From an uncultured Geobacteraceae bacterium (lineage in GTDB: Bacteria > Desulfobacterota > Desulfuromonadia > Geobacterales > Pseudopelobacteraceae), in the NCBI GenBank assembly GCA_903925005.1, contig CAIYDX010000402.1:1-64000 (forward strand): 64,000 bases of DNA. The letters run 5' to 3'. The position numbers and the translations under genes are program-made. Below are positions 6,917 to 9,731 of this stretch, piece by piece. Position 1 is the first letter of the stretch, and every line of letters begins with the position of its first letter. The notes under the pieces are model-generated. The model saw only the letters and a list, made by a program, of their open reading frames with translations, ran no database searches and had not been told where the DNA came from.

Positions 6917-7897
6917 ATGAGGATTGCCCCTATAATTGCAATATTGCTTTTGTTCTACGGAATTGGAGTATGCGCTGAATCACAACCACCAACCCCAAGT
7001 TTCAGGATAATCATTCAAGAAGAACATGCAGGCACCAAACAAACCACACAAAATCGAGCAAAAGAACAACCCGGCATTGAGTCAAACTCTTTTGTTGTAA
7101 AAAGCATTCCCAATCAAGAGAGCAAAGACGATGCAGATTACAAGAAATACGAGCATCACGAGAAACCGACGCTTGATAGATATATGACATGGGGCACTGT
7201 ATCACTTGCCGTTTTTACATTCCTCTTATTTTGTTTCACCGCCGCTCTTTGGTGGGTAACCTATCGATTGAGCAAAGACGCCAGGATAACTTCCGAACGG
7301 CAAGCCGCAGAAATGGCGGCATCTATTTCTGAAGCTGCTAAAGCTGCCTCTGCTATGGAACGCGTCTCCACTCACATGGAAATCAGCGCCAAAGCAGCGT
7401 CTGAAAGTGTCGCTACTCTCAAAGAGCGAACAGCTCAACAAATGCGGGCTTATTTGACTGTGACCATAAACAACGGGATATTTCAAGAACGAACAAGGAA
7501 TCTTAAATTTGACGTCAGACCGACATTAAGTAATTCTGGCAATACCCCTGCTCACAAAATCACCTATTGGGCAAATGCTGATATTCTGCCGTATCCATTA
7601 CCAGATGACTTCCAATTACCACCAGCTAAAAACAAAATCCAAAGTTCATATGTACTCGGTCCGCATCAAAATGTTGTGTTGAACGCTATTGTAGATGATT
7701 TTGTTCCAGATGAAGACGTCAAGAATATCAAGCTTGGAAAAGAACGACGGGCTTATATTTGGGGCGAAGTTTCATACATTGATGCTTTTGGTGATAGCCA
7801 CCGCACTAAATTTAGTCATAGCATTTATTGGCTGGGTGAAGAAGAAAAAGAGATGATTTTCGGTAATTATGACAGCATATACAATGAAGCTGATTAA
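6917..7897 (+). CDS. Hypothetical membrane-anchored protein
   Basis: 326 aa with RBS (AAGGAGC) and promoter; N-terminal signal, TM at VSLAVFTFLLFCFTAALWWVTY, coiled-coil, then a beta-rich domain. Confidence 0.8.
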   Translation: MRIAPIIAILLLFYGIGVCAESQPPTPSFRIIIQEEHAGTKQTTQNRAKEQPGIESNSFVVKSIPNQESKDDADYKKYEHHEKPTLDRYMTWGTVSLAVFTFLLFCFTAALWWVTYRLSKDARITSERQAAEMAASISEAAKAASAMERVSTHMEISAKAASESVATLKERTAQQMRAYLTVTINNGIFQERTRNLKFDVRPTLSNSGNTPAHKITYWANADILPYPLPDDFQLPPAKNKIQSSYVLGPHQNVVLNAIVDDFVPDEDVKNIKLGKERRAYIWGEVSYIDAFGDSHRTKFSHSIYWLGEEEKEMIFGNYDSIYNEAD

Positions 7898-7921
7898 ATT
7901 AGCTTCCTAACCTATTGCGAA

Positions 7922-7975
7922 GTTCGGGGGACACCTTATTTAATTCAAACGAGATAAGTATGGTGTCGCCCGAAC
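7922..7975. repeat. Imperfect inverted repeat, REP-like hairpin
   Basis: GTTCGGGGGACACC...GGTGTCGCCCGAAC arms around an AT-rich loop. Confidence 0.75.
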
Positions 7976-8005
7976 ATACATCCCAGGAAACAAACCAAGT
8001 AGGAG

Positions 8006-8466
8006 TTGGGCCACACTAATGACCATTACGATTTTAAGAACTATTGCTTTGCTTGTCGCGCTTGCCATGTCAGTTCGCGCAAACGCAGCGGACTTCACGA
8101 GAAATGTCACTTTTACTCAGGGAAAAGCATCTACCGCCATCCAAGGCGACGTCATAAGAGGAGATAGAGACAATTACCTCCTCAGGGTCCGCGCCGGACA
8201 AGTCATGTCGGTTGAGGTTACGGCACAGGAAAACAATGCGGCCTTTTCTATTTTTGAACCGAAGGCCGATGAACCAATTCCTGGCACAGAGTCGGAGCAC
8301 GACCGTACGAAGTGGAGCGGTGTCTTAGCTAAGAGTGGCATATATCGGATAGAAGTTGGGAGCACCAGAGGAAATGCACAATACACATTGCGCGTTTCAG
8401 TCAAATAATGTGGCCCAGCCCATCCATCGAGAGGGACCGCTTATCGGCGGCCTCTCATGTCAGACG
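8006..8466 (+). mobile_element. Putative integron gene cassette (single cassette with its attC)
   Basis: Left boundary GTTGGGC (GTTRRRY) at 8005-8011; ORF starts 8 nt later; attC-like site follows the stop; no integrase seen in window. Confidence 0.62.
8019..8408 (+). CDS. Secreted 129-aa protein, PliG-like (g-type lysozyme inhibitor) / PPC-like domain
   Basis: Signal peptide ending ANAAD; VTFTQGKASTAIQGDVIRGDRDNYLLRVRAGQVMSVEV and SGIYRIEVGSTR resemble PliG sequence motifs from memory. Confidence 0.6.
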   Translation: MTITILRTIALLVALAMSVRANAADFTRNVTFTQGKASTAIQGDVIRGDRDNYLLRVRAGQVMSVEVTAQENNAAFSIFEPKADEPIPGTESEHDRTKWSGVLAKSGIYRIEVGSTRGNAQYTLRVSVK

Positions 8467-8472
8467 TTGAAT
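8413..8472 (+). other. attC-like recombination site (60 bp)
   Basis: R'' GCCCAGC ... GAGAGG-GA-CCGC-TTATCG-GCGG-CCTCTC ... R' GTTGAAT; R'' flank TGTGGCCCAGC is complementary to the cassette left end GTTGGGCCACA in 10/11 positions. Confidence 0.65.
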
Positions 8473-8522: not shown

Positions 8523-9731
8523 ATGATTTACGACTTTATTGTAATTGGTGCCGGAATAATCGGGATGTCAACAGCCCGGCAGTTGCAGCAAGCTTTTCCA
8601 GGGAAGTCTGTACTGGTGCTGGAAAAGGAGATTGGCCCGGCCTGCCATCAGACCGGCCGTAACTCCGGGGTAATCCATGCCGGGTTTTACTATGCGCCGG
8701 GGAGCTTGAAAGCACAATTCTGCCGGGAAGGAAATGTCGCCACCAAGGCGTTCTGTGCCGAGCACGGCATCAGGTTTGAAGAGTGCGGCAAACTTCTGGT
8801 GGCGACCAACGCTCTCGAACTGGAGCGAATGTCCGGACTGGTCACCCGCTGCGCAGAAAACCAAATTCCTTTCGAGGTCTTGTCAGCGCAGCAGTTGAAA
8901 GAGGCGGAGCCGAATATTACCGGGGTCGGAGCCATTCTGGTGCCATCCACAGGCATCGTCAACTACGCCGAAATCACCCGCAAGATGGTTGAACTGGTCA
9001 TGCAAAGTGGTGGAGAAGTCCTGTTTAACAGTAACGTCGTGGCGCTTGCCGAACAGCCTGACAGGATGTCGGTCCGGACCGACAAAGCGTGTTTTGAGGG
9101 GCGCTATCTCGTGGCCTGCGCCGGGGTGATGGCTGACCGCGTGGTCGCGATGACCGGGGTCAAGCCGGAGTTCAAGATTATTCCGTTCCGCGGCGATTAC
9201 TTTCTGCTGGGCGTAGAGCATAACCGCATCGTAAATCACCTGATTTATCCGATCCCTGATCCGGAATTGCCTTTTCTCGGGGTACATCTGACAAAGATGA
9301 TCGACGGCACGGTTACCGTCGGCCCCAACGCTGTACTGGCCTTCAAGCGCGAAGGGTATGCCAGACTCGACTTCAGCCTGGCCGACAGTTTCGAAATGCT
9401 GACCTATCCGGGGCTGCTCAAAGTCCTGCGTGACAACTTCAAAGTCAGTATGCTGGAGCTGAAAAACAGCCTTTTCAAAGCGGGCTACCTGGAACTGGTG
9501 CGCAAATACTGCCCGAGCCTGACCGTGCAGGACCTGCACGATTATCCGGCTGGAATCCGTGCGCAGGCGGTCACCCCGGAAGGTTTACTGGTTCATGACT
9601 TCCTTTTTGTAAATACGGACAGGGCACTGTTCGTATGCAATGCGCCGTCCCCGGCGGCAACTTCCGCTATTCCCATAGGTAAGCATATCGTGGAGAAAAT
9701 GCAGACATTAACTAAGACCAAAGAGGGGTAG
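8523..9731 (+). CDS. lhgO: L-2-hydroxyglutarate oxidase
   Basis: FAD motif DFIVIGAGIIGMSTARQL; TGRNSGVIHAGFYYAPGSLKA; PFRGDYFLL. Confidence 0.92.
   Translation: MIYDFIVIGAGIIGMSTARQLQQAFPGKSVLVLEKEIGPACHQTGRNSGVIHAGFYYAPGSLKAQFCREGNVATKAFCAEHGIRFEECGKLLVATNALELERMSGLVTRCAENQIPFEVLSAQQLKEAEPNITGVGAILVPSTGIVNYAEITRKMVELVMQSGGEVLFNSNVVALAEQPDRMSVRTDKACFEGRYLVACAGVMADRVVAMTGVKPEFKIIPFRGDYFLLGVEHNRIVNHLIYPIPDPELPFLGVHLTKMIDGTVTVGPNAVLAFKREGYARLDFSLADSFEMLTYPGLLKVLRDNFKVSMLELKNSLFKAGYLELVRKYCPSLTVQDLHDYPAGIRAQAVTPEGLLVHDFLFVNTDRALFVCNAPSPAATSAIPIGKHIVEKMQTLTKTKEG

Follow-up and report, generated by a model that had tools for sequence, protein, structure and literature searches.

An isolated integron gene cassette among ordinary chromosomal genes of a Geobacteraceae-type genome

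Is a short open reading frame that is bounded by integron-type recombination boxes, and that lies among ordinary chromosomal genes, a complete gene cassette, and by which route did it come to stand there alone? This question is raised by positions 8006–8466 of the window (the whole stretch of DNA analysed, 64,000 nucleotides), which the initial annotation had read as a lone cassette with no integrase nearby. Its nature is treated below first, followed by its arrival, its cargo gene and its place among known systems.

Cassette boundaries and identity of the attC

Positions 8006–8466 form a genuine, complete and isolated integron gene cassette. The cassette (461 bp, plus strand) extends from the TT of the left box to the G of the right box and is defined by G|TT boundaries at both ends. 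In the left junction core GTTGGGC (8005–8011, plus strand) the G is assigned to the acceptor and TTGGGC to the cassette; in the right junction core GTTGAAT (8466–8472, plus strand) the G is assigned to the cassette and TTGAAT to the acceptor. A single short ORF (8019–8408, plus strand) lies between the left boundary and the attC in the same orientation, and the attC follows right after its stop codon, with TGTGGCCCAGC at 8409–8419 directly 3' of it. The attC (8413–8472, plus strand) consists of R'' (8413–8419), L'' (about 8425–8435), L' (about 8450–8458) and R' (8466–8472); hairpin letters are GAGAGG-GA-CCGC-TTATCG-GCGG-CCTCTC, and R'' to R' measures 60 bp. All of these letters, and the 60-bp spacing, had been placed correctly by the initial annotation, which was also right that the left boundary mirrors R'' in 10/11 positions. 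This complementarity joins the cassette start to R'' and its four upstream bases: 6/7 for the left core GTTGGGC against R'', and 4/4 for the next four bases (CACA/TGTG). A run of at least four beyond the core was found in 29% of 80 native cassettes versus 2% of reshuffled pairs, and the run of four seen here thus argues that start and attC belong together. When this geometry was searched for (GTTRRRY, a 10/11 reverse complement 200–1800 bp downstream, and GTTRRRY 45–150 bp further), it was found once in the window, versus an expected 0.025 times per shuffled strand.

The boxes of an attC are an inverse core, RYYYAAC, and a core, GTTRRRY. The core GTTGAAT fits in 7/7 positions and the inverse core GCCCAGC in 6/7; one mismatch in R'' was also present in 45 of 150 array attCs, AGC in R'' in none of the 150. 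When its bottom strand folds, an attC forms an imperfect hairpin in which extrahelical bases, typically T and G, project from one side at a spacing of about 6 nt (PMC3053210); the folded bottom strand of the window attC has this arrangement, with unpaired TC, six paired bases and an unpaired G.

An Rfam scan of the window gave no match, and attC models of our own were made after it. Loci around relatives of a Geobacteraceae integron integrase gene (80 in total) were taken from GTDB genomes; covariance model R1 was made from 21 aligned attCs upstream of intI, and covariance model R2 from 150 attC sites. The structure pairs of R1 hold in 84% of cells, versus 71% in shuffles and 30–43% when slid. 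On 1 Mb of intI loci R1 gave 180 sites at E<0.01, all of them on the strand, and to the side of intI, where cassettes are expected, which in this internal test indicates that the model is specific. Each model gave one match in the window, at 8413–8472 (R1, 32.4 bits; R2, 39.9 bits, E=1.5e-5 in 386 kb), and in an R2 search of the whole 5.4-Mb genome the window attC ranks best (E=2e-4). The covariance-model check named by the initial annotation was thereby passed. R1 misses most host-lineage attCs, so that a lack of R1 or R2 matches does not prove native-type cassettes to be absent.

A blastn search against 72,556 plasmids gave one match (94.6% over 56 bases; 53/56, 8413–8468; E=1e-15), on pRHBSTW-00464_5 (NZ_CP056487.1), a mobilizable IncP plasmid of Klebsiella sp. 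from wastewater, in which the attC sits in a cassette array adjoining an integron integrase (TIGR02249, 411 bits). The aligned copies are identical through GACGTT and diverge immediately afterwards, exactly where the G|TT crossover was predicted; the plasmid reads GTTAGGC and the window GTTGAAT, and the right boundary at 8466 is the point where identity ends. As far as sequence can tell, this match is an independent confirmation of the identity of the attC; together with the attC models, it bears out the lone-cassette reading. The next most similar attCs belong to Gallionellaceae and Rhodocyclales integrons; no copy was found in phage, viral contigs or E. coli. The attCs of the host lineage are of other types, and for that reason the window cassette looks foreign.

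Insertion site and route of arrival

The cassette is flanked by an orphan ORF (6917–7897) and an lhgO-like gene (8523–9731); its contig measures 69 kb and carries host genes to either side of it. The hypE/lhgO interval of the initial annotation therefore stands in part: the lhgO-like gene adjoins, but the other neighbour is the orphan ORF, and hypE lies one gene further off. The orphan ORF, between hypE and the cassette, encodes 326 aa, is low in GC (42%) and matches no family above cut-off. An inverted repeat, GTTCGGGGGACACC...GGTGTCGCCCGAAC, lies just ahead of the cassette, at 7920–7978; similar copies in many family genomes and in another contig of the same genome (C269) mark it as a dispersed repeat. 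The cassette flanks are not conserved in 76 family genomes, among which neither an empty nor a second occupied site was found; in one relative (G010) the hypE–lhgO interval holds other sequence, in another (G027) an unrelated gene is upstream of lhgO.

It is likely that an integron integrase brought a single foreign cassette into the chromosome at a G|TT (a secondary site/attG); the cassette is now probably stranded. The cassette would have come from the freshwater/soil proteobacterial pool, its attC being of the type of betaproteobacterial and plasmid integrons. The integrase, supplied by the host's own integron or by a visiting plasmid, would have placed it between the orphan ORF and the lhgO-like gene, in an acceptor predicted to have read ...GTAGGAG|TTGAATAGC... 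before insertion. The insertion event itself we infer from the sequence, since no empty site was found among the 76 family genomes. Integron integrases act on minimal GNT sites outside integrons, and IntI1 uses GNT secondary sites (PMC4618277; PMC10127599), with a GNT/GWTMW consensus in PMC4618277; cassette insertion into genomes at attG sites is attributed to Loot et al. 2024 in the citing passages of PMC12901181 and PMC11023631. Against a single insertion speaks the right box: GTTGAAT fits GTTRRRY in full, which is more than a secondary site requires.

The host assembly, of Geobacteraceae type, is a draft in 419 contigs, with a completeness of 95% and a contamination of 6%. No integron-type integrase (TIGR02249) was matched on the contig of the cassette, and the window holds no intI with adjacent attI and thus does not qualify as an integron. 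In the whole genome no intact intI was found, merely a C-terminal remnant on contig C389 (23263–23502; 79 aa, of which 71 align at 79% identity with the C-terminus of a 477-aa integrase of the genus type). The earlier statement that no integrase is nearby is accordingly true of the contig; at the scale of the genome there are this remnant and, on contig C186, a cassette array, and hence a history of integrons. The remnant is accompanied by an attC-like site and, by our own reading, a BrnT/BrnA-like pair. The array lies at a contig end (C186, 1–4400), has no visible integrase and encodes small exported proteins; its host-lineage attC-like sites are on the minus strand, at 777–842, 1404–1472, 2022–2094, 2494–2558 and 2818–2890, and its attC type differs from that of the window.

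These genomic traces bear on an alternative in which the cassette is the last survivor of a larger array or integron eroded by deletion (a one-site CALIN). The C186 array, with no intI seen on its contig, and the C389 remnant indicate that erosion happens in this lineage, and the perfect GTTRRRY of the right-hand box would suit an array; no further attC was found in the 64 kb by R1 or R2, however, unrelated chromosomal sequence abuts both cassette ends, and the attC type is unlike that of the host's own arrays, so that erosion is judged unlikely. An assembly or binning chimera that joined the cassette to a chromosomal contig might be suspected in a draft of 419 contigs with 6% contamination, but is very improbable: the junctions fall exactly at both G|TT recombination points, and the cassette is internal to the 69-kb contig, between host genes. 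A chance palindrome beside an ordinary chromosomal gene, with which the unremarkable folding energy of the single strand alone (z=-1.7) and an R'' one base off consensus would agree, was rejected on the R2 score (E=1.5e-5 in 386 kb), the rarity of the geometry (0.025 per shuffled strand) and above all the 53/56 match (E=1e-15) to the plasmid-integron attC, by which it is refuted in practice.

Integrons are common in the host genus: integron integrases above the TIGR02249 cut-off are present in 18 of 39 genus genomes. Many carry an N-terminal extension of roughly 150 aa (e.g., a 477-aa integrase at L078:9559-10992), and these extended integrases adjoin attC families of their own, common to several species; multiple intI genes in Geobacter are on record (PMC2426708). 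Some genus genomes have clear betaproteobacterial-type attCs. In relative G003 such an attC (C23:65984-66073), with a decayed R' box GTAAGGC, lies inside a 149-kb contig and is possibly a second lone cassette.

Cargo gene and present mobility

The cassette gene (8019–8408) encodes a 129-aa protein with a signal-peptide-like N-terminus (our own reading of the sequence). By phmmer the protein matches PDB 4dzg, the PliG of Aeromonas (E=1.5e-7); its matches to other PliG chains are weak. Similarity to PliG (PDB 4dzg, 4dy3, 4dy5) spans residues 29–121 at about 28% identity. A single-sequence AlphaFold model (pLDDT 76) has 4dzg as its top Foldseek match (E=4.6e-6), with a TM of 0.44 that is low and taken as supportive only. 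No match was obtained in Pfam and NCBIfam. Distant homologues (32–36% identity) are present in Aeromonas, Comamonas and Sulfitobacter records; no relatives were found in the genome-contig and viral-contig collections, no copy in the fetched intI loci, and merely a weak 29% match in 98 relatives. The cargo is probably a PliG-like periplasmic inhibitor of g-type lysozyme, for which a useful function is plausible.

The AGGAG of the host flank (8001–8005, plus strand) abuts the junction and stands 13 nt before the ATG; it may serve the cassette gene as a host-derived ribosome-binding site. A search just upstream of the gene found no sigma-70-like site.

The joined attC of the circle, folded with the flanking four bases, would give -18.4 kcal/mol versus -9.5 for the integrated form, which is weaker because the GTTGAAT of the acceptor barely pairs with GCCCAGC. 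The cassette is now probably immobile, its attC being predicted to recombine poorly: R'' has AGC and not AAC, there is hardly any pairing between R'' and the new R', and searches of the genome found no intact intI.

Significance and comparison with known systems

The existence of such lone cassettes is not new, and the general understanding of integrons is unchanged. The window adds a well-bounded natural case of a cassette out of the integron system, settled among ordinary chromosomal genes; for Geobacteraceae we found little description of such cassettes. That a chromosomal attC is tied to a near-identical attC on a mobilizable IncP plasmid points to exchange between environmental bacteria and the integrons of plasmids. 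Tentatively, and with rather low confidence, the genus might routinely gain foreign-type cassettes singly, at G|TT sites dispersed over the chromosome, perhaps via its own N-terminally extended integrases (about 475 aa); this idea is based on R2 sites in 14 of the 39 genomes of the genus, in most of them a single site, and the weaker of these sites could be chance. If true, isolated cassettes rather than arrays would be a regular gene-gain route in the genus.

Compared with PliG, the cargo protein is alike in sequence similarity and in a beta-rich exported domain; it is unlike in its identity of about 28%, and its inhibitory function is putative. With a CALIN as defined in IntegronFinder 2.0 (PMC9024848) the window shares an attC without a nearby integrase, but it has one attC where the default needs two; single-attC cases can be true according to the same source. 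The integron of pRHBSTW-00464_5 differs in that its cassette lies in an array with intI, carries a different gene and has AAC in R'' where the window has AGC; the 60-bp attC, the cassette start TTGGGC and the extended complementarity of start and end are alike. Cassettes at secondary sites or attG, as far as they are described in the sources cited above, differ in that the acceptor box of the window is a full GTTRRRY and the insertion here is read from sequence; they are alike in that a single cassette stands at G|TT outside any integron.
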